A stretch of DNA of 41,756 nt from a virus, in the IMG/VR virus record IMGVR_UViG_3300009130_000060, positions 1-41,756 of that record, one strand, 5' to 3'. The position numbers were made by a program, and so were the translations under genes. How positions within the stretch are numbered: the stretch's first letter is position 1; every line of letters begins with the position of its first letter. The notes under the pieces are model-generated. The model saw nothing but the letters and a program-made list of their open reading frames with translations, did no database searches and was not told where the DNA came from. This document shows, piece after piece, positions 2,858-24,718 of this stretch.

Positions 2858-3196
2858 ATGGCAGCTAAACAGACTAGCAAAAGAAATCGCTACGCAGGTA
2901 CTTCAAGAGGTAAAAGTAAAACCTCTAAGTACTATGCGAAGAACCCAAAGGCTAGAGAAAAGAAGAGGGCGTACAACAAGAAGTACAATGCAAAGCCTGG
3001 GGAAAAGAAAAAGAGGGCAGAGTTGAACAGGTATAATCATAAGAAAGGTACTTATGGTAATGGTGATAACAAAGACGCCTCACACAAAAACGGAAAGATA
3101 AAGGGAATGGAATCCCAATCTAAAAACCGAGCTAGGAATGGTAAAGGCTCTACTAAGCCAGGAAGAAAGAAAACAACAACTAAAAAGAAGAGATAA
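2858..3196 (+). CDS. Small highly basic protein, possible DNA-binding or virion protein (112 aa)
   Basis: Function unknown. About a third of the residues are Lys or Arg, with few hydrophobics, a repeated K-K-R-A/K-Y pattern (residues 30-60), the segment G-T-Y-G-N-G-D-N-K-D (64-73), S-K-N-R-A-R-N-G near 87-94, and a lysine tail. I recall similar small basic proteins with the G-T-Y-G-N and N-R-A-R words in many environmental phages, without known function. It could coat or condense DNA, or enter the virion with it. It is the first of four consecutive tiny basic genes; the next ATG overlaps its stop (TAATG). Confidence 0.7.
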   Translation: MAAKQTSKRNRYAGTSRGKSKTSKYYAKNPKAREKKRAYNKKYNAKPGEKKKRAELNRYNHKKGTYGNGDNKDASHKNGKIKGMESQSKNRARNGKGSTKPGRKKTTTKKKR

Positions 3197-3300
3197 TGAA
3201 AAAGTGCTGTGGTAAATGCTCTAAAATGAAGAGAACAAAAACTAAAAAGAAAGCGATTAAGAAAACGACTAAGAAAACGACTAAGAGATATGGCTACTAA
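3196..3300 (+). CDS. Tiny lysine-rich protein with cysteine cluster (34 aa)
   Basis: Translation begins M-K-K-C-C-G-K-C-S-K, giving three cysteines in five residues that might bind a metal ion, and continues as a Lys/Thr tail with the repeat K-K-T-T-K-K-T-T-K, like histone H1 tails. The ATG overlaps the previous stop (TAATG) and the end overlaps the next gene by 11 bases; without it there would be a gap of about 90 bases in a fully packed region. No family recognised. Confidence 0.6.
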   Translation: MKKCCGKCSKMKRTKTKKKAIKKTTKKTTKRYGY

Positions 3301-3550
3301 AAAGAAACCTGCAAAAGGTAAAAGATTTGTCAAAGTGGTTAAGAACCCAAAGACAGGGAGAACTAGAAAAGTTAGTTACGGTCAAGCAGGAAAAGCAAAG
3401 AGTGGAGGGGATAGGATACGTCCTGGTACTAAGAAGGGTGATGCTTACTGTGCGAGATCGGCTAAGATCAAGAAGTGTAAGAAGCCACCTTGTGCTAACG
3501 CTTTATCAAGAAAGAAGTGGAAGTGCAGGGGGAGTAAATCTATGAAGTAA
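3290..3550 (+). CDS. Small basic protein with GDAYCARS and LSRKKWKC motifs (86 aa)
   Basis: Function unknown. It has a basic N-terminus, then K-V-V-K-N-P-x-T-G-R (15-24), V-S-Y-G-Q-A-G-K-A-K (28-37), R-I-R-P-G-T-K-K-G-D-A-Y-C-A-R-S (42-57) and L-S-R-K-K-W-K-C-R-G near 72-81. These words recur in a family of small basic proteins I recall from marine and other phages, near terminase genes. The four cysteines may bind metal. It is probably a nucleic-acid-binding or virion protein, which is inference from charge and place. The stop overlaps the next ATG (TAATG). Confidence 0.7.
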   Translation: MATKKKPAKGKRFVKVVKNPKTGRTRKVSYGQAGKAKSGGDRIRPGTKKGDAYCARSAKIKKCKKPPCANALSRKKWKCRGSKSMK

Positions 3551-3696: not shown

Positions 3697-4220
3697 TTTT
3701 TAAGGTTAAATTAGACGAGGACATTCGTAAGACTAATGATGGTATAGATAGCATTCCTGCATTTGTTGACGCAAACGACAAAACAATCAAGTATGTTATA
3801 CTGATGTACGATTACGATTCTCCTTATGCTAGGCAACCTCACGATGTAAGGAAACAACAAGTGTTGTTAGCTTTGGATTACAGGAAACAGGGGTCTATTG
3901 ATTCTTTCTTTTCACGTAACCGAAAGAAAATAAAAGATTGTGAGGAAGCTTATGCTGAATTACAGTATGATGATATATACGAAGGTTTGTTATCTTGTAA
4001 GACACAGTTAAGGAACTGGGATAAGTTATTAAGGAACGAAGAGAAAACAGATAAGGAAGAGGCTCTAGCTTTTAAAATCTTTGACAAATACCCACAGTTG
4101 ATGGAAAAGATTGAAGAGATGGAGAAGATTGTCGGTTATAGAGAGAGGTATGACAAGGCATCTACAGCAGACAAGAGAACTTCTTTAGAAAAGTATATTC
4201 AATCTAACAGTAAAAGATAA
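3693..4220 (+). CDS. Hypothetical protein upstream of TerL; candidate small terminase
   Basis: Not recognised by motif. The first 50 residues look beta-rich (I-F-K-V-K-L...K-Y-V-I-L-M-Y-D-Y-D), the rest is helical and highly charged, with a coiled-coil-like stretch about 95-150. It sits exactly where phages often carry the small terminase, which recognises DNA and recruits the large subunit, and its stop overlaps the TerL start (TAATG), which implies coupled translation. There is no clear helix-turn-helix, so the small-terminase role rests only on position. Confidence 0.6.
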   Translation: MIFKVKLDEDIRKTNDGIDSIPAFVDANDKTIKYVILMYDYDSPYARQPHDVRKQQVLLALDYRKQGSIDSFFSRNRKKIKDCEEAYAELQYDDIYEGLLSCKTQLRNWDKLLRNEEKTDKEEALAFKIFDKYPQLMEKIEEMEKIVGYRERYDKASTADKRTSLEKYIQSNSKR

Positions 4221-6082
4221 TGGATTTAAGTTTATCAGGAGATTGGAAATACGAGTATAAGACGCTTCCTAGAATCAAAACCGAAGAAGATATACAACAT
4301 TACGTCAAGGTTGCAGAAGAGTACTTTCCTAAATGGACTAGAGGTAAATATAAGAGAGTAGAGATTCCTAAATTCAGTAACCCTATAGCGCAAGAGACTT
4401 GGGAGTTTGAAGAGATTAGGAGGTGTATACAAGGACACGATGGTTTACCAGGTCGTATGTATTTTTATTTTCATTATTGCTCTATACAGAATATTAGTGG
4501 TGGATTTATTAAACCACAGTTCCGTATGGCTGATGCTATATGGTTTCATTTAGTAGAAAGTTGCGAATGGGGGAACTATAATCAAGAGACTGGTATTATA
4601 TGTGTGAAACGTCGACGTTCAGGGTTCTCTTGGAAACAAGCGTGTGATGCACTATGGGAAGCTTTGTTTAAACAGGGTAGTCAGATTGCTATGATCTCTA
4701 AAGATGAAGATTCTTCTAAAGATTTGCTAGACAAAGTGTATGTTATGGAAGAACAACTACCTTCTTTCTTAAAACACCCTAAAGCAAAGCGTTCTATGGA
4801 TGGTGCTTTATTTGCTCGTAAAGAAAAAGATGAAGACACTGGGGATTTACTATTAACAGGTAACCGTTCCAAAATTACAGTACGTGCGCCTTCTGACACT
4901 TGTTTAGAGGGTTTACAAGCAGGTAAGTTGGTTATTGACGAGGTAGGGAAGATACCTAATGTTAAAACTATTGTGTCTATGGCAGGTCCTATCTTAATGG
5001 AGGAAATGCACAGGGTAGGAGTTCTTATTATGTTTGGTACAGCAGGGGAACAAGAGAAAGATGGTGTAGGACAAAAAGACTTTTGGGTTAATCACGAAAG
5101 CCACGACTTACAAAGATTCTTCTTCCCAGGTTGGGCAGGTATGTCATCTGATGAATTTGGTAATGATGATATAGAAAAAGCCGTACGGTATATATTAAAG
5201 GAAAGAGAGAAGAGGTTAGCTATCAGTGAGAAAGATTACACTGAATATGTTCAACAGTATCCATTGTATGCAGAAGAAGCTTTTTTATCTTCAGGAAATG
5301 ATGGTATTGGACACGCTAAAAACATTCGTAAGCAATTAGAAGATTTAGATACCGTTTCTAAAGAACCTAGAAAGGGAAAATACGTTCAAGATACTGATGG
5401 GGTTGTTAGCTTTGTACCTAATACTCTTTATGATGTTTCAGGTAAAGCTATTATGTGGGAAACGCCAAACCCTTCTAAAGATTATGTAGCAGGATGTGAC
5501 CCTGCTGACCACGACCACGTTACAAAAGGTTCAGACCTTTCTATGTATATTATGTCTAAGCAGAAAGGGTTGACGCCTCCACAGATTGTTTTCTCTATGA
5601 CGTTTAGAACTGAAAACGTAGATGACTGGTATCAACAGGCAGCTTGGGCTTTAGAAAGCTACAATAATACAAAAGTTCTTGTGGAGAATAACAGGTTCGG
5701 TATGATTAAGTGGTTTCAGAACACTGGTTATATGCACTTACTAAGGTATGAACCTTCTAACGCCTCAAAACTTATTAAAGGAAAACCTAGGTCTGTTGGT
5801 GTAAGAGCTACAGCTTCTAGTAATAAAGAGATGGAAAGATGTATAAACGATTACACTACTAAGTTCTGCGACTTAATACTTGATAATGAGTTACTTACAG
5901 AATTTGGTGTTTACGGAATACAAAACACAGATAGGGTTTTTGCTTTTGGTTGGTGTTTAGTTGCTCTTGAAGATGAATATATTTCACAGGAAAGAAAGGA
6001 ACATATTAAGCAAGCCTTGCCGAAAACTCAAATGCGTATGATTAGAGGAAAATTAACTAGAGTAAGAAGACGAAAAAAATAA
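4220..6082 (+). CDS. Terminase large subunit (TerL)
   Basis: DNA-packaging motor: an ATPase that drives DNA into the prohead through the portal plus a nuclease that cuts genome ends. Visible: a Walker A-like loop K-R-R-R-S-G-F-S-W-K (130-139) of the variant arginine-rich type found in many Bacteroidota phages; Walker B K-L-V-I-D-E (236-241), whose final Glu is the likely catalytic base; a coupling motif candidate M-F-G-T-A-G (271-276). The RNase H-like nuclease half begins near 420 with A-G-C-D-P-A-D (Asp427), then L-V-E-N-N-R-F-G (Glu489 region). At 620 aa the length is normal for a two-domain TerL. It directly precedes the portal gene (TAATG overlap). Confidence 0.92.
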   Translation: MDLSLSGDWKYEYKTLPRIKTEEDIQHYVKVAEEYFPKWTRGKYKRVEIPKFSNPIAQETWEFEEIRRCIQGHDGLPGRMYFYFHYCSIQNISGGFIKPQFRMADAIWFHLVESCEWGNYNQETGIICVKRRRSGFSWKQACDALWEALFKQGSQIAMISKDEDSSKDLLDKVYVMEEQLPSFLKHPKAKRSMDGALFARKEKDEDTGDLLLTGNRSKITVRAPSDTCLEGLQAGKLVIDEVGKIPNVKTIVSMAGPILMEEMHRVGVLIMFGTAGEQEKDGVGQKDFWVNHESHDLQRFFFPGWAGMSSDEFGNDDIEKAVRYILKEREKRLAISEKDYTEYVQQYPLYAEEAFLSSGNDGIGHAKNIRKQLEDLDTVSKEPRKGKYVQDTDGVVSFVPNTLYDVSGKAIMWETPNPSKDYVAGCDPADHDHVTKGSDLSMYIMSKQKGLTPPQIVFSMTFRTENVDDWYQQAAWALESYNNTKVLVENNRFGMIKWFQNTGYMHLLRYEPSNASKLIKGKPRSVGVRATASSNKEMERCINDYTTKFCDLILDNELLTEFGVYGIQNTDRVFAFGWCLVALEDEYISQERKEHIKQALPKTQMRMIRGKLTRVRRRKK

Positions 6083-8217
6083 TGCACAACAGACAAAGAC
6101 ACAGTCAAAGCCTACCAAGTCTTAATATTCCTGAAGCAAAGAAAGATGCTAAATGGCATAAGGATTATTGCTTAGGTATTATTAGGTCAGCCGTAGGAAG
6201 TAAGTATGAGTATTCTTATACTTCTATGCAGGAGGCTTATGATTTCTATGATGGAACTCAAAGTAATGAGGAGTTTGATTTTATTCAAACAAGTGAAACA
6301 GGAGATACACTCCCTGCTATTTGGATTAACTACAATAAGATCAGAACAAAGGTAGATGTTCTTATTGGTGAGTTATCTTCTAAAGGGTATGAAATAGGTG
6401 TAAAAGCTGTTAATAAAGAAGCTGTATCCAAAAGACTTAACAAGAAGATGGAAATGTTAGGTAAGATGGATATTAGAGAGGACTTACAAGAGCTTGAACA
6501 AATATCAGGTTTTCCTTCTCCTCAAACCGAAAACATTCCTGATACTGCTGAAGAGATTGAAGAATACATCAACGACACATATAAAGATGAAGCTGAAGAG
6601 GTAATGGAAGCTGCTTTAAAATTCCTTTTGAAGAAATACAAATGGGATATGAAGCGTTTACAATTATTTAAAGATGTCCTTATTACTGGTAGAGCTTTTG
6701 TTAAAACTAAAATTGTCAATGGATTCCCTACTTATGTTAGAGTAGACCCTAGACGTATGGTTATTGACACAAGTGCTACTGATGACTACTTAACAGATAA
6801 AGCGTATTGTGGCGAATCAGAATATATATCTTTAGCTGAAGCTGTTGATATTTACAAATTAACCGATGATGAAATAGAAGAGGTTATGAATTCTGAAGAA
6901 AACAACTCTAATGTAGATTTAGAATCAGAAGCTAGATTAGACTATACTTCAGGAGACGGTTTAGGTTTAAAGGTCCTTGTATTCCACGCTGAATGGCAGG
7001 ACTACAAATGGTTAAACAGAAAGGTTTCTAAAGATAGATTCGGAAACGAACACTATAAAAAAGTTAAGGATACTGCTAAAGGTAATGACATTATTAGAAA
7101 ACGTGTAAAGGTTTGGCGTAAATGTACACTTATCGGTGGTAAAGTTGTAAGAGAGTTTGGTATTCGTGAGAATATGAACAGAAGTGTAGATGATATTTAT
7201 GATACTAATTCATCTTATGTTTGTTTTTGCCACAATTTCTCTAATCAAATAACCGTATCTAAAGTTGATATGATGAAAGGTATACAAAAGGCAAAGAATA
7301 TTGCATTGTATAACCTTCAATTAGCTTTAAACAGAGCAGGTACAAAAGGTATCGCTTATGATATAGCCAATATTCCTGACGAGTGGGATATTGAAGAAGT
7401 TCTTGGTCATTTAAAATCTTATGGTATTGTTGTTTACAACTCTATGAAAGATGGTATTCCAAGTGGCTCTAAGCCTTGGGATGAATTTGATATGACTATT
7501 TCCAACTCTATTGGACAGTACATTAACATAAGTAATATGTACGATAGAGAGTTAGATGAAATTACTGGTATCAATGACGCACGTCAAGGTCAAGTTGGTA
7601 GTGCATCTCAAGCTGTAGGAGTAACACAAGCTGCAATTTCAGCCTCTCAATTCGCAACCGAACCTTTATTTGAAGGATTCAGAGTATTTGGAGAGATGGT
7701 ATTCAATGAGTTAGCAGGATTGGTTAAGATTGTTTACGGTGAGAAGAAAGAGATTTTTGCTCCTATCATTGGAGACGCAGGAGTTGACTTCTTAAAAAGA
7801 GATGTTGATTTACATTTGAATGATTATGGTGCATTCGTAGAGATGACGCCTCCATTAATTGTAGACAAGCAGAAGTTTGAGAACTTTATCAATGTATCTT
7901 TACAATCAGGTAAAATCGAGGTTGTAGACGCTTTAGATTTAATTATGGAGAAAGATACTAGACAAGGTGTTAAACGTCTCAAGAGAGCTATAGAAAAGCG
8001 TGAGAAAGAGAAGCAACAAGCAGAACAAGCTATGCAACAAGCTCAAGCCCAAGCTAAAGCTCAAGCACAACAAGAACAGATACAAATGCAACAAATGTAT
8101 CACCAACAAGAACAACAAGCGAAAGCTTTACGTAGAAGAGAAGAGATTCAACAAACACATCAAAATAGATTAGGTCAAGAAGCGTTTAAAGCAGAACTAA
8201 GAAGTAAACAAGTTTAA
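6082..8217 (+). CDS. Portal protein
   Basis: Probable dodecameric ring at the capsid vertex through which DNA enters and leaves, and to which the tail attaches. Assignment rests on position right after TerL (TAATG overlap), length (711 aa, usual for podovirus/crAss-type portals) and internal pattern: Y-D-F-Y-D-G-T near residue 50, G-R-A-F-V-K-T...V-R-V-D-P-R-R (about 202-228) and D-R-E-L-D-E-I-T-G-I-N-D-A-R-Q-G (about 485-505), the last typical of portal proteins. The C-terminal 75 residues are rich in Gln and Ala and heptad-like, as in portals whose C-terminal barrel or coiled coil reaches into the head. Confidence 0.85.
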   Translation: MHNRQRHSQSLPSLNIPEAKKDAKWHKDYCLGIIRSAVGSKYEYSYTSMQEAYDFYDGTQSNEEFDFIQTSETGDTLPAIWINYNKIRTKVDVLIGELSSKGYEIGVKAVNKEAVSKRLNKKMEMLGKMDIREDLQELEQISGFPSPQTENIPDTAEEIEEYINDTYKDEAEEVMEAALKFLLKKYKWDMKRLQLFKDVLITGRAFVKTKIVNGFPTYVRVDPRRMVIDTSATDDYLTDKAYCGESEYISLAEAVDIYKLTDDEIEEVMNSEENNSNVDLESEARLDYTSGDGLGLKVLVFHAEWQDYKWLNRKVSKDRFGNEHYKKVKDTAKGNDIIRKRVKVWRKCTLIGGKVVREFGIRENMNRSVDDIYDTNSSYVCFCHNFSNQITVSKVDMMKGIQKAKNIALYNLQLALNRAGTKGIAYDIANIPDEWDIEEVLGHLKSYGIVVYNSMKDGIPSGSKPWDEFDMTISNSIGQYINISNMYDRELDEITGINDARQGQVGSASQAVGVTQAAISASQFATEPLFEGFRVFGEMVFNELAGLVKIVYGEKKEIFAPIIGDAGVDFLKRDVDLHLNDYGAFVEMTPPLIVDKQKFENFINVSLQSGKIEVVDALDLIMEKDTRQGVKRLKRAIEKREKEKQQAEQAMQQAQAQAKAQAQQEQIQMQQMYHQQEQQAKALRRREEIQQTHQNRLGQEAFKAELRSKQV

Positions 8218-15457: not shown

Positions 15458-18442
15458 ATGATACAAAACTCACTACACAGTAGGTATAACAGGAACCATA
15501 GTCCTAAGAGCTTTTCTTGGGATGGTTCTAATACCACAAGTAAGATTATTTGTACGGATGCTAGTAGAAGTATTAGAATGGCTAATGATTGGACGTTTGC
15601 GTGTTTAGTGAACTCCAATGACTCAACTGGTCTAACAACTTTATACAGTGATTATTTTGGTTCAGATGGTATAGCTATCTGTTTAGATTTACTAACGAAC
15701 CCAAGTGAAACATACATTCGTATAATTGACAGAGGTACAAATACAGCTCGTTATTACGCCACTAATAGTCTTTTTACAAATAAATGGATTTCAGTAATAG
15801 TTAGTTATGAAAGCTCTACAAATGAATTAAGTTGTTACGTAAATGGAGTAAACTTAGGTAACAATACATTGGGTAATAAAACTTATTCAGCTACAGCAGA
15901 ATGGGCAGTAGGAGATGACTTTGGTCTATACTGTTTACCTTCTACTTTTTCAAATACTTCGGTAGAAGGTTTGTACTCAAGCTTTTGTATTCTAGACAAG
16001 CAAGCCGACAATGGCTTCATAGAAAGCTTTAACGTCTTTGGAGAACCTGATTCTGCTTCTTATAGTAACGTAACTTTCTTTACAGACCTTAGCAAGGTTA
16101 ATGCTAAATCCTCTTATGTAGGAACTGAATGTTCTTCCGTATTCTACAATAGTGCGACAACAACTAAAGAAATTAAATACCTTGGCTTTGACAATCAGAA
16201 GCTAGGCATAGATGCAAGCAACAACTTAGCGTTAGATATGGGTTCTCTATGGCATAACGCAGTTCCTGTTGGGAGTGGAGGAAGCTTTAGATTAAATAGC
16301 TTTAATCTTGCAAATAACCCTCCAACAGTAGGGTTTGCTAATGGTTGGACAATGGTTTGGAAGGGAAATTTCGCACCTAGTGGATTACCAAACCAAATAG
16401 ACTCTACTTGGTTTATTCAGCAATTCGCAGGATTTTCGTCAACGCAACATTTAATCACGCACGACATTAGTGCATCTAACATTGAACATATAGTTCGTGA
16501 TAATAGCAATAATGTTTTAGGCTCTATAGTTATCCCTATCGCTAACATAGACAGACAAATAACACTAACTATTACAGCAGACCCTATTGGAGAATACAAA
16601 GCTTACATAGACGGTGCTTTAGTTACAACGGCTACCTTTACTTATAAAGAATTGAGTGATGGAAGTTCTAATTGTAGAGTAGGTGTTTTAAGTACAGGAA
16701 GTTCTAACCAAAGACATTACAAAAATCTTAGTGCGTTAAAAATTTATGACAGACCTTTAAATAGCACAGAAGCATTATTAACAAATGGTTATGATCTGAA
16801 TGCATTAAGTGGGTTAATTTGTAGTTTTTCCACAGACGTAAGGGATAATATTTGGTACGATGACACAGGGAACTGTTTGCCTTCTTTAAGTGGAGGAAGT
16901 ATGCCTTCTAACACTAATTTTATTATTCCTATACCAGGAAAGAATACAGAACCAAAGGGTCTCTCTAATGATTGCTTGTTAAAAGACTTTTATGTAGAGG
17001 AAACAGAAGATGCTTTCGGTTTAGATATGGGTGATTTATGGTACACAGAACCTACTTTATCCAACTCTAATGTAGTAAATATAGATTTAGAAAGTGGTAC
17101 TACAAATCACACAGTAGGTTGGACTAATGGTTATAGCGTAACTTTCAAAGGTAATTTAGCTTATAGACCTAGTATTCCAAGTGCTTCAACTCAAACAATC
17201 GCTTGGTTTTGTAGTGGTAACGCTTCTTTACGTACAGATGGAGTAGATGATATATTTTTGCAGATTACAGGTATTACAGGAACTTTCTTACACACACAGG
17301 TTAAACTAGACCGAAACAATGTTTATACAGTAACTGTAACAGCATCAGGCGTTTACACAATGTATGTTAATGGAGTTAAAAGAACTCAAGAAACTAAAAC
17401 TTTTATTCCTTTAAATAACGATACAACCTCTATGGCAATAGGAGTGCTATCTCCTAAAAGATTTTATAAGAATTTCCAAAGCATTAGAATTTACGATGGA
17501 GTTCTTACAGACGCACAAGCTAGTAGCGTATTAGGAAGTGAATTGGACACTTATAGTCCTTTATGCTCTTACTCTACTAATATGAACTCTTCTGCTAAAC
17601 TAATAGACAACACAGGTAATTTAGCAGACACTACTCCTGTTGTTTCTCATACGTTTATTGATACAGTTGTGGAAACTGATAGTGGGTTTCAACCTAGAAG
17701 AAAAGGTTTGCAGTTTACAGCAGCGAATCAACACTACTTAAAGATAGCCGACCTACCACAAATAGATGTAGATTTAGGTTGTACTATTATAATGGTAGCT
17801 AAAGATTTTGCTATGGCTTCTGATAGAACTATAGCTTGGTTTAGCGATGAAGTAGCGACAAACGACTTAATACGTATTCTATACAGAACTGGAACACCTA
17901 ATGTAGTAGGGTTTAACAGTAATGTTTCTACAGGTTCTGAAATCCAAACAGAAGTAGACGCTAATGAATCTAATAGATTAGTTTTTAAAGCTTCTAATCA
18001 AACTCAAACAGAACCTAAAAACACATTTAATAAATTAGGTTCGGTTAATAAAATTTCAGATGTGAAGACTGAAGCTTTTGTTAGAAATGGAGCTACGTAT
18101 GATTTATTTATTGGTGGAGTACCAGGCGAAGACTTACCTACTTTTGGTGCAGAGCAGTATTGTGATGTTACTATTGAATCATTTATATTAGTTAATGGAG
18201 TAATGGATGATGCTGATATTGATAAAATAATACACAACAACAAAGTAAACAACGTACCTATTGAACTACAAGAAAAGTACGACTTTGAAGTGATTGTAGA
18301 TTTTAATAATGTATATGATGATGCAGGTACTTTAAAGGTAAAAGATTTAAGTGGTAATGACCACGATATTGTTGCTAGGGGTAGTGCAGGTCTTGGTTGG
18401 AACAATTTAACAGAATTAGAAGCAAGTCAAGTAGATTTATAA
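15458..18442 (+). CDS. Large multi-LamG virion adhesin (994 aa)
   Basis: Probable receptor- or glycan-binding protein built of about four ConA/LamG-like domains, at roughly 18-215, 250-480, 520-745 and 755-960. Domains two and three are clear duplicates: L-D-M-G-S-L-W against L-D-M-G-D-L-W, then G-W-T-M-V-W-K-G-N against G-Y-S-V-T-F-K-G-N, G-V-L-S...Y-K-N-L against G-V-L-S...Y-K-N-F, and a shared I-Y-D near their ends. Domain four has L-Q-F-T-A-A-N-Q-H-Y-L, typical of LamG starts. No trimerising collagen-like repeat or chaperone is seen. It lies just before the phospholipase and amidase, in the adhesion block. Confidence 0.7.
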   Translation: MIQNSLHSRYNRNHSPKSFSWDGSNTTSKIICTDASRSIRMANDWTFACLVNSNDSTGLTTLYSDYFGSDGIAICLDLLTNPSETYIRIIDRGTNTARYYATNSLFTNKWISVIVSYESSTNELSCYVNGVNLGNNTLGNKTYSATAEWAVGDDFGLYCLPSTFSNTSVEGLYSSFCILDKQADNGFIESFNVFGEPDSASYSNVTFFTDLSKVNAKSSYVGTECSSVFYNSATTTKEIKYLGFDNQKLGIDASNNLALDMGSLWHNAVPVGSGGSFRLNSFNLANNPPTVGFANGWTMVWKGNFAPSGLPNQIDSTWFIQQFAGFSSTQHLITHDISASNIEHIVRDNSNNVLGSIVIPIANIDRQITLTITADPIGEYKAYIDGALVTTATFTYKELSDGSSNCRVGVLSTGSSNQRHYKNLSALKIYDRPLNSTEALLTNGYDLNALSGLICSFSTDVRDNIWYDDTGNCLPSLSGGSMPSNTNFIIPIPGKNTEPKGLSNDCLLKDFYVEETEDAFGLDMGDLWYTEPTLSNSNVVNIDLESGTTNHTVGWTNGYSVTFKGNLAYRPSIPSASTQTIAWFCSGNASLRTDGVDDIFLQITGITGTFLHTQVKLDRNNVYTVTVTASGVYTMYVNGVKRTQETKTFIPLNNDTTSMAIGVLSPKRFYKNFQSIRIYDGVLTDAQASSVLGSELDTYSPLCSYSTNMNSSAKLIDNTGNLADTTPVVSHTFIDTVVETDSGFQPRRKGLQFTAANQHYLKIADLPQIDVDLGCTIIMVAKDFAMASDRTIAWFSDEVATNDLIRILYRTGTPNVVGFNSNVSTGSEIQTEVDANESNRLVFKASNQTQTEPKNTFNKLGSVNKISDVKTEAFVRNGATYDLFIGGVPGEDLPTFGAEQYCDVTIESFILVNGVMDDADIDKIIHNNKVNNVPIELQEKYDFEVIVDFNNVYDDAGTLKVKDLSGNDHDIVARGSAGLGWNNLTELEASQVDL

Positions 18443-19339
18443 ATGAAAATAGCAGTATTAACAGGAGGTGGTGCTGACGGTGCTTTTACCGTTGGTCGCC
18501 TAGAGACATTAAATAAAGATTATGATAAAGCTATCGGCTCTAGTACAGGGTCGTTAGCTTCTGTCTTAACATTACTAAAGGACTGGGATAAATTGGGAGA
18601 CGCCTATGAAAACACGGAAACCAAAGACATCACAGAAAAAAGTGCTTTTAGTAAAGACGGCTCAATAAATATTAGAAAAGTTATCACAAGAACAATAAGA
18701 AGTTATGGAAAAAGACAACCAAAAACTGTGGGAGAAAGTAAAGCACTTCGTAAAAGAATTAATACTTTCGTTAGCGAAGCAGACTATAACAGATTACGTG
18801 AACAAGAAAAAGAAGCAATAGTAACTTGCTTTAGTATGACCACTGAAAGTGTATCACATTTTAGTAGTTTAACAGAAAAATTTGAGGATTTTAAAGATTG
18901 GATGTGGGCAAGTGCAAACCCTCCTATTGTTTTTTCGTTATTAAAGAAAGCAAAAGTAGAAGGAGGGAATATTGAAGAATGGGTAGATGGTGGAGTTGGC
19001 TCGATCACACCTATATCTTTAGCTGTACTATCAGGAGCTTCAGAAGTGGACGTGTTTATGCACCAACCAAAACCTGAACACCATTTTAAGAAAAGCATTA
19101 AAAATGTACCTCACTTTATTTCTAGGCTTTTTAAATCTTATTACAAAATAAATGAAGTAAAGGAATTAGAAGCAGGACTAGAATTAGCTAAATTACTAAA
19201 CGTAAATGTGAATGTTTACTGGATGCCTCAAGAGTATTACGACAACTCTTTAATTTTTGGAAAAGAGAAAATGAAAAACTTGAGACAAAAAGGTAGAGAA
19301 CACGCTTACGATTGCATTGATAACTACAACTTTCGGTAA
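18443..19339 (+). CDS. Patatin-like phospholipase
   Basis: Probable acyl hydrolase of the patatin family, which uses a Ser/Asp dyad to cleave phospholipids. All three hallmarks are present: oxyanion-hole glycines G-G-G-A-D-G-A-F (8-15), nucleophile elbow G-S-S-T-G with Ser34, and D-G-G with Asp182 (V-D-G-G-V). Length, 298 aa, is normal. There is no signal peptide. The gene starts directly after the lectin gene stop and is followed seven bases later by an amidase, so it may attack the host membrane during lysis, or be virion-bound for entry. Which of the two is not shown by the sequence. Confidence 0.85.
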   Translation: MKIAVLTGGGADGAFTVGRLETLNKDYDKAIGSSTGSLASVLTLLKDWDKLGDAYENTETKDITEKSAFSKDGSINIRKVITRTIRSYGKRQPKTVGESKALRKRINTFVSEADYNRLREQEKEAIVTCFSMTTESVSHFSSLTEKFEDFKDWMWASANPPIVFSLLKKAKVEGGNIEEWVDGGVGSITPISLAVLSGASEVDVFMHQPKPEHHFKKSIKNVPHFISRLFKSYYKINEVKELEAGLELAKLLNVNVNVYWMPQEYYDNSLIFGKEKMKNLRQKGREHAYDCIDNYNFR

Positions 19340-19346
19340 CAAAATT

Positions 19347-19982
19347 ATGAGTAAAAGACATTGGATTCTTGACGCAGGACACGGTGGTATGGTTGACGGA
19401 CAATATACCACTAATCCTTATTATGACGAAAACGACCCTAAGACATTTCATAAAATGTGGGTTCACGATGGTACACCTATATACGAAGGAGTATTTAACA
19501 GATTGGTTGTCAATCAGATAGCTACTCGTCTTAAAGAGGAAGGCGTCTCACATCAAAAATTAGTAGGTCAATTAGACACTTCATTAAGATGGAGAAAGAA
19601 TGAAGCAAACTATATATATACAAAGAAACCTGAAAGTGTATTAGTATCAGTACACGGAAATGCTTTTAACGGTCTAGCAAAAGGAATTGAAGTATTTACA
19701 AGTAAAGGAGAAACGAAAAGTGACCCTATTGCAGAAGTATTTTGCACAGAGGCAGACAAAGAGTTTCCTAGTAAAGCAATGAGATGGGATTTGTCAGATG
19801 GAGACAAAGACAAGGAAGCTAACTTCTATATTTTATCTAAAACTAGATTACCTGCAATATTAACCGAAAACTTTTTCTTTGACAATAAAGACGAAGCAGA
19901 GTTTATGATGTCAGAAGAAGGTGTAAGAAGAATAGCAGAGTATCACGTACAAGCAATTTTAAAGATAGAAAAATGGACATAG
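19347..19982 (+). CDS. N-acetylmuramoyl-L-alanine amidase (Amidase_3 type endolysin)
   Basis: Zinc hydrolase cutting the bond between muramic acid and the stem peptide. Zinc ligands are visible in the usual order: L-D-A-G-H-G-G (His12), Y-E-G-V-F-N (Glu47) and S-V-H-G-N-A (His103); the catalytic Glu is in I-L-T-E-N (Glu174). Length, 211 aa, equals a bare catalytic domain with no wall-binding domain, usual for phages of Gram-negative-type hosts. I start at ATG 19347, eight bases after the phospholipase stop; an upstream in-frame TTG at 19317 would overlap that gene and adds no family residues. No signal peptide, so release would need a holin, for which the next two small genes are candidates. 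Confidence 0.9.
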   Translation: MSKRHWILDAGHGGMVDGQYTTNPYYDENDPKTFHKMWVHDGTPIYEGVFNRLVVNQIATRLKEEGVSHQKLVGQLDTSLRWRKNEANYIYTKKPESVLVSVHGNAFNGLAKGIEVFTSKGETKSDPIAEVFCTEADKEFPSKAMRWDLSDGDKDKEANFYILSKTRLPAILTENFFFDNKDEAEFMMSEEGVRRIAEYHVQAILKIEKWT

Positions 19983-20152
19983 AAGATTTGAAAGCATTAG
20001 CCGTTGTATTTATGACAGGAATTTTTGAGCATTTAATGCATAATCCTATTGGTAGCTTAACAGCAATTATTGGTTTATTGTATGTATATCAAAAATGGCA
20101 AACACAAAGTATTTTAAGAAAGAAAGCTGAAAAAGATTTAAAAGACGAATAA
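19973..20152 (+). CDS. Small membrane protein, holin candidate (59 aa)
   Basis: Starts inside the amidase end (ATG 19973, amidase stop 19982). Residues about 9-39 are hydrophobic with one or two short membrane spans broken by H-L-M-H-N-P, and the C-terminal 18 residues are strongly charged (I-L-R-K-K-A-E-K-D-L-K-D-E), the layout of small phage holins. Direct linkage with the endolysin gene supports a role in lysis timing; family not recognised. Confidence 0.6.
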   Translation: MDIEDLKALAVVFMTGIFEHLMHNPIGSLTAIIGLLYVYQKWQTQSILRKKAEKDLKDE

Positions 20153-20242
20153 ATGAAAAAGGCACTTATTATTATTTTGTTTGGAATAATGACTACTTAT
20201 TATTTATTAAAAAAACATTTTGAAGAACTATGGCAGTTATAA
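20153..20242 (+). CDS. Tiny single-span membrane peptide (29 aa)
   Basis: Begins M-K-K-A-L-I-I-I-L-F-G-I-M and is mostly one membrane segment with a charged end (K-K-H-F-E-E). It follows the holin candidate without a gap and overlaps the next ATG by 13 bases, so it fits the packing exactly. It could be an antiholin, spanin-like piece or signal peptide-like remnant; too short to classify. Confidence 0.45.
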   Translation: MKKALIIILFGIMTTYYLLKKHFEELWQL

Positions 20243-24094: not shown

Positions 24095-24718
24095 ATGATA
24101 AAGGAATTTGACAAAGTCTTTGTTATTAACGTAGCTAGCTACAAAGAACGAAGACAATTAAGTAAAGAAAAATTAGAAACTATTGGTATGCAGGAAGGGC
24201 TTGATTACGAGTTCTTCCGAGCTACTACAGGTAAAAGTAAATTCGCTAAATTAAATGGTGAAGAATCAGTAGGGTGGAATCGCAATGCAGCAGGATTAGT
24301 TTATACCACTAGAAGGATTATTGAAACGGCAAAGAAAAATAAGTGGAAATCAGTTTTAATATTTGAAGATGATATAAACTTTATTAACAACTTTACCGAC
24401 CTATATCCGAAAGCAATTAAAGATTTGCCTGAAGAATACGATTTCTTCCATTTAAACGCAACTAATACAAAGCCTCCAATATGGCATAAGGGGATGTTGC
24501 ATAAAATAAAAGAGGCATTATGCTGTCAGGCTTATGCTATTCACGAATCAGTATATGACATCTACTTAGATGAACTAAAGAAATCTTGTAGACCAATAGA
24601 CGAAACAACAAGGATTTTACACAAGCAAAGAGGCAGAAGCTATTGCACAAGACCTAATTTAGTTTATCACGTAGAAAACTTATATTCTAGTTTGAGAGAA
24701 AGAATCGTACATTATTAA
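24095..24718 (+). CDS. Glycosyltransferase family 25-like protein
   Basis: Probable sugar transferase of the GT25 family (LPS/collagen galactosyltransferase type). Visible: N-terminal V-F-V-I-N-V-A-S-Y-K-E-R-R (8-20), matching the family start F-V-I-N-L-x-x-x-x-x-R; W-K-S-V-L-I-F-E-D-D (84-93), with the metal-binding E-D-D; Y-D-F-F-H-L-N (115-121); A-Y-A-I-H near 146-150; and P-I-D-E (167-170). Length, 207 aa, is normal. It could change host surface sugars to block superinfection, or glycosylate fibre proteins. Its position between fibre genes suggests the latter or a linked role; the acceptor is unknown. Confidence 0.8.
   Translation: MIKEFDKVFVINVASYKERRQLSKEKLETIGMQEGLDYEFFRATTGKSKFAKLNGEESVGWNRNAAGLVYTTRRIIETAKKNKWKSVLIFEDDINFINNFTDLYPKAIKDLPEEYDFFHLNATNTKPPIWHKGMLHKIKEALCCQAYAIHESVYDIYLDELKKSCRPIDETTRILHKQRGRSYCTRPNLVYHVENLYSSLRERIVHY

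Follow-up and report, generated by a model that had tools for sequence, protein, structure and literature searches.

For phage WO of Wolbachia, a 'patatin-based lytic cassette' was proposed in 2022 as a hypothesis (PMC9203015), and in mycobacteriophages the lipolytic esterase LysB has been demonstrated to finish the third step of lysis (PMC5707550). Among tailed phages of Gram-negative hosts, ~13% are without identifiable spanins according to a passage of PMC12819732 (citing Kongari et al. 2018), which also states as an open question whether disruptins or other outer-membrane disruptors act in spanin-less phages. A phospholipase encoded in an endolysin-holin operon, and recurring near lysis genes across several phages, would be a directly testable candidate for such a spanin-less breach of the outer membrane.

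Such a gene was analysed here in a viral record of 41,756 nt (IMGVR_UViG_3300009130_000060), the whole of which is called the window. The original prediction for this locus remarked that patatins are seldom discussed in phage lysis, which is correct, although the WO cassette was already on record (PMC9203015). Given that precedent, what is new here is a lysis-cassette patatin in a new phage group and in an unusually clean operon; a literature search for patatins in crAss or jumbo phages returned nothing relevant.

The window and its patatin gene

As judged from sequence comparison, the window corresponds to the structural region of a divergent crAss-like phage (Crassvirales), a group whose hosts are Bacteroidota. 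By tblastn its terminase matched 52 phage records, the named ones all being crAss-like, and identity to known Crassvirales was ~23-25%; given this distance, the phage may represent a new family-level lineage. A scan of viral_contigs with the terminase gave no relatives. The genes run from terminase and portal through a small protein and the capsid region to the fibre and lysis genes, followed by the tail tube and the giant structural proteins (Table 1), an order that agrees with that of crAss001 and cr50_1, in both of which the annotated lysis genes are likewise grouped with tail-spike genes. Two small, strongly Lys/Arg-rich proteins are encoded 5′ of the terminase (2858-3196 and 3290-3550), the former matching a PHROG of unknown function (3e-22) and having a homologue in contig L101. 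Within the tail block, 24095-24718 encodes a weakly glycosyltransferase-like protein that shares 38% identity over 97 aa with a protein of the 636-kb phage LR756504, encoded ~8 kb from the patatin there.

Table 1. Features of the window, with the evidence for each assignment.
Feature	Position	Strand	Evidence
Terminase large subunit	4220..6082	+	tblastn; phmmer to cr50_1 7e-25
Portal protein, crAss-like	6082..8217	+	phmmer to cr50_1 3e-39; PHROG portal 1.5e-95
Tail-fibre/adhesin-type protein, 994 aa, LamG/ConA-like domains	15458..18442	+	Laminin_G_3 1.1e-16, 3 stretches (Pfam)
Patatin-like phospholipase, 298 aa, ATG start	18443..19339	+	Pfam PF01734, predicted structure, Foldseek, alignment
N-acetylmuramoyl-L-alanine amidase (Amidase_3) endolysin, 211 aa	19347..19982	+	Pfam 1.3e-20; PHROG 435 endolysin 2.8e-30
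Single-TM protein, 59 aa, charged C-terminus, holin-like	19973..20152	+	Sequence; L093 homologue
N-terminal-TM peptide, 29 aa, MKKALIIILFGIMTTYYLLKKHFEELWQL	20153..20242	+	Sequence and translation
Virion structural protein, 1663 aa	28310..33301	+	phmmer to cr50_1 1337-aa structural protein 3e-13; PHROG 3.8e-18

The open reading frame at 18443-19339 is an intact patatin gene, well past what chance would produce, with the profile score, the motifs (GGG, GxSxG and DGG) and the fold of the PF01734 (Patatin) family. The Pfam match reached 59.6 bits (E 6.4e-16; curated cut-off 27.7) over residues 5-194 of 298, and the complete catalytic signature that had been claimed was found, with GGGADGAF as oxyanion loop (residues 8-15), GSSTG as nucleophile motif (residues 32-36, Ser34) and DGG as dyad motif (residues 182-184, Asp182). 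Among 17 aligned phage patatins, Ser34 is identical in all and Asp182 is conserved in 15. The AlphaFold2 model, based on an alignment of 16 sequences, has a pLDDT of 80.9 and a pTM of 0.83, and its Foldseek matches include CapV, CapE, PlpD and the plant patatin patatin-17 (E 1e-11 to 1e-7; identity 13-18%). From active site and fold, lipid acyl hydrolase activity is predicted. Scans for TM segments and lipoboxes revealed no signal peptide, TM segment or lipobox in the protein, and the make-up of a spanin (lipobox and/or TM anchor plus periplasmic domain) was not found in it.

The patatin gene is located within a gapless block that runs from the LamG fibre through patatin and Amidase_3 endolysin to the 59-aa holin-like protein and the 29-aa membrane peptide, and it thus belongs to an endolysin/holin cassette. 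The fibre stop abuts the patatin start (junction TAAATG, 0 nt between), only 7 nt separate the patatin stop from the amidase ATG, the 59-aa gene starts 10 nt inside the 3′ end of the amidase gene, and the 29-aa peptide starts next to the 59-aa stop and overlaps the following gene. The tail-plus-lysis setting and the position directly before an amidase and tiny membrane proteins, both part of the original prediction, were therefore borne out, with more tail-fibre and structural genes on the sides of the block. Scans for sigma-70 promoters and terminators gave counts no better than those in shuffled sequences.

Several members of the block have relatives in other phages. The fibre has a syntenic homologue in L014, and homologues of the amidase carry endolysin annotation in Bacteroidota phages. 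The 59-aa protein has a homologue in L093 (E 1.8e-8) beside an amidase 58% identical to that of the window, which supports the protein as a cassette partner, probably a holin; since PHROGs gave no match for it, the designation 'holin' is taken from size, topology and position.

Spanins and relatives of the patatin in other phages

A scan of the window's coding strand gave neither a lipoprotein nor a u-spanin-like ORF, in agreement with the earlier remark that no spanin could be recognized there; as the 41.8-kb window compares with Crassvirales genomes of ~95-100 kb, a spanin may be encoded elsewhere in the genome. The single further protein with an N-terminal TM, encoded at 2396-2854 and 5′ of the terminase, was weighed as a candidate i-spanin and rejected as a MazG-like pyrophosphohydrolase.

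Relatives of the window amidase were found in 11 contigs from which patatin is absent, and in 8 of the 11 a membrane-anchored gene that is spanin-like by topology only follows the amidase. By the same measure, three of these genes have a clear u-spanin topology (L098, L103 and L104), four contigs carry an N-terminal TM or lipobox-like anchor with a long domain (L095, L096, L097 and L101), and in L093 TM proteins with coiled-coil-like character are encoded. This distribution suggests that a patatin may have been exchanged for a spanin in the window phage. However, L015 encodes a protein of u-spanin topology (4043-4489; lipobox Cys17 and C-terminal TM) with the patatin 2.5 kb further, so strict replacement is not a rule. 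The idea that the patatin acts in place of spanins thus gains slight support from the window, which has no candidate, and L015 shows that the two can coexist.

Patatins of the same clade were found in L014 (11-kb contig, 47% identical), in L015 (42-kb contig), in many large contigs, the longest of 366 kb, and in a single contig assigned to a Bacteroidota MAG by binning. In a maximum-likelihood tree the window, L014, L015 and jumbophage patatins form one group with moderate support (89/83), whose sister is a chromosomal Bacteroidota patatin family (~300 aa) with full-length profile matches (E near 1e-60) in about one-tenth of the 296 sampled genomes; the patatins of L032, RM378 and LR756504 fall apart from this clade. 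The cellular Bacteroidota proteins read GGGSKGA in the oxyanion loop, with a basic K at a position taken by D, W, Y, M or L in the phage clade, and such sequence markers of the clade can be used to find further phage patatins. In two jumbophage patatins the active site is altered, the dyad Asp being replaced by Asn in L026 (6935-7876) and both oxyanion loop and dyad being degenerate in L029 (6968-7921); these two are possibly decaying or non-catalytic, and the damaged dyads indicate that not every lineage needs the function. Scans seeded with the L032 or L015 patatin returned essentially self-matches only.

A prophage origin of the bacterial homologues was rejected, as they are surrounded by genes of chromosomal type whose arrangement recurs. 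The 'phage' record MT835490 (L012) was set aside for its bacterial-looking neighbours (DNA polymerase I- and CoaE-like by eye), and two short Listeria-labelled 'phage' records with patatin matches were left out. In L081 and L085 the chromosomal Bacteroidota patatins occur as tandem duplicates and adjoin a conserved protein of ~650-700 aa that is M1-type peptidase-like by eye.

In the phages of the clade and in L032, the distance from the patatin to a peptidoglycan hydrolase or holin is 0-7 kb, often with the patatin right after a fibre gene. For example, L014 encodes fibre, patatin and a small TM protein in the absence of an amidase, L015 harbours a GH19 endolysin, a PHROG holin, the u-spanin and the patatin all inside 4.6 kb, and L032, with its unrelated patatin, has a 1192-aa fibre-sized protein (without family match), patatin and Amidase_2 consecutively. 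In the jumbophage clade the nearest Amidase_2/GH25 gene shares the strand of the patatin at a distance of 2.8-6.9 kb, and every Amidase_2/GH25 match in these contigs of up to 366 kb falls within ~13 kb of the patatin. For a single contig the estimated chance of such a distance is 0.04-0.57; with related contigs, proximity supports a lysis role and does not decide it; the jumbophages in particular are one clade, and the linkage does not represent many independent events. The patatins of RM378 and LR756504 had no association with lysis genes, as far as annotated and searched. In L020, L026, L029 and jumbophage loci related to them, the endolysin gene 5′ of the patatin alternates between Amidase_2 and GH25 at one place, within a conserved gene row that includes a membrane protein of 64-66 aa.

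Role of the patatin in the phage cycle

On balance we favour, by a modest degree of belief, a late phospholipase that would be accessory to envelope rupture by endolysin and holin. We infer that the patatin would be co-expressed with fibre, endolysin and holin on a late message and, as a soluble protein, would remain cytoplasmic until the inner membrane is permeabilized by the small membrane proteins. Since the patatin has no signal peptide or TM segment, it would depend on the holin lesion for access to the periplasm and outer membrane, like the amidase, and the two may enter the periplasm together. There the amidase would strip peptidoglycan, and at the same time phospholipids both of the inner membrane and of the outer membrane's inner leaflet would be hydrolysed by the patatin, the released fatty acids and lysophospholipids then destabilizing the envelope; in the window phage, the patatin may take over the outer-membrane step that is usually that of spanins. 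The active site, the fold, the gapless cassette, the recurrent lysis neighbourhood and the lack of a spanin candidate in the window argue for this role, while the u-spanin beside a patatin in L015, the damaged dyads of L026 and L029, and the location of the RM378 and LR756504 patatins away from lysis genes count against it.

The lysis role of the original prediction is upheld in so far as the clade lies near endolysin or holin genes in three phage groups, with L032 alike, but the same neighbourhood also fits a role in the virion. Lysis genes are commonly near tail genes, and with the patatin so often beside a fibre gene, the neighbourhood cannot pick one role over the other. Entry, which the original prediction had named as an alternative, therefore stays as the main rival: a virion-associated phospholipase, carried with the upstream-encoded fibre, would cut outer-membrane lipids for genome delivery. 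A fibre/adhesin or fibre-sized gene lies directly 5′ of the patatin in the window, L014, L002, L016, L018 and L032, almost as often as lysis genes adjoin it; the L002 fibre has an S74 fibre chaperone domain, and further tail-fibre and structural genes border the window block. However, Pfam detected no virion-attachment domain in this single-domain enzyme, endolysin and holin follow immediately 3′ in the window, and no recognizable fibre is directly beside the patatin in L004, L006, L020, L023, L026 and L029, so we regard entry as unlikely. Still less probable is intracellular lipid remodelling or host takeover (fatty-acid supply, membrane change or superinfection exclusion), with the proximity to lysis genes as a by-product of late-gene clustering. 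The missing secretion signal, the chromosomal and apparently cytoplasmic nature of the nearest cellular relatives, which are Bacteroidota patatins away from phage genes, and the RM378 and LR756504 patatins outside late blocks would all suit such a role, yet in three groups of the clade the gene sits within a late structural/lysis operon, and a phospholipase present constitutively in the cytosol would probably do harm ahead of lysis.

An effector of defence or counter-defence akin to CBASS CapV/CapE, nucleotide-activated and of the abortive-infection type, is very improbable. AbCapV and CapE are the closest solved folds and weak PADLOC effector matches were obtained (best 2.7e-8), but identity to CapV/CapE is 14-18%, the NCBIfam CBASS lipase model gave 21 bits where its cut-off is 200, and no nucleotide cyclase (CD-NTase) was detected among the family-scanned neighbours, the adjoining genes being those of LamG fibre and amidase; a CBASS identity was thus rejected on model score and gene context. 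We give least credence of all to a moron, that is, a non-essential passenger that came from a Bacteroidota chromosome and serves the phage cycle in no defined way. Although the phage clade is sister to a chromosomal family, the L029 copy is degenerate and none of the nine Crassvirales genomes tested harbours a patatin, the gene is kept across deeply diverged phages (25-37% identity) with active site and kind of position conserved.

Comparison with known systems

Like the window locus, the WO cassette contains a small holin-like gene close to a patatin gene that adjoins the tail module, and the patatin was proposed as an enzyme of lysis and/or entry (PMC9203015). The two differ in that the WO cassette is without endolysin, in a host without detected peptidoglycan, whereas the window patatin adjoins a true amidase; moreover, the WO patatin is outside the window subfamily (BLASTP E 0.073, 22% over 220 aa). 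CapV and CapE share the Ser-Asp chemistry and fold of the patatin, but the window protein is far below the CBASS model cut-off, and the chromosomal Bacteroidota patatins, a sister clade, differ by the K of their oxyanion loop and by having no phage genes nearby. LysB is a lipolytic enzyme of a lysis cassette that acts after the endolysin, as proposed for the patatin, and was likened to spanins by its authors (PMC5707550), but it acts on a mycolyl-arabinogalactan substrate, is another enzyme in another envelope and has a demonstrated function, whereas the patatin is known from sequence.

Spanins and disruptins possibly serve the same step as the patatin, the breach of the outer membrane after peptidoglycan loss, but they are either membrane proteins with fusogenic action or short amphipathic peptides, whereas the patatin is a soluble hydrolase. 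A bolder and rather doubtful proposal is that, in crAss-like and related Bacteroidota phages, a holin-released phospholipase could serve as an enzymatic outer-membrane disruptor that would dissolve the lipids of the envelope and, in the window phage, would fully replace the spanin. If true, spanins and disruptins would be joined by a third class of lysis effector for the outer membrane.
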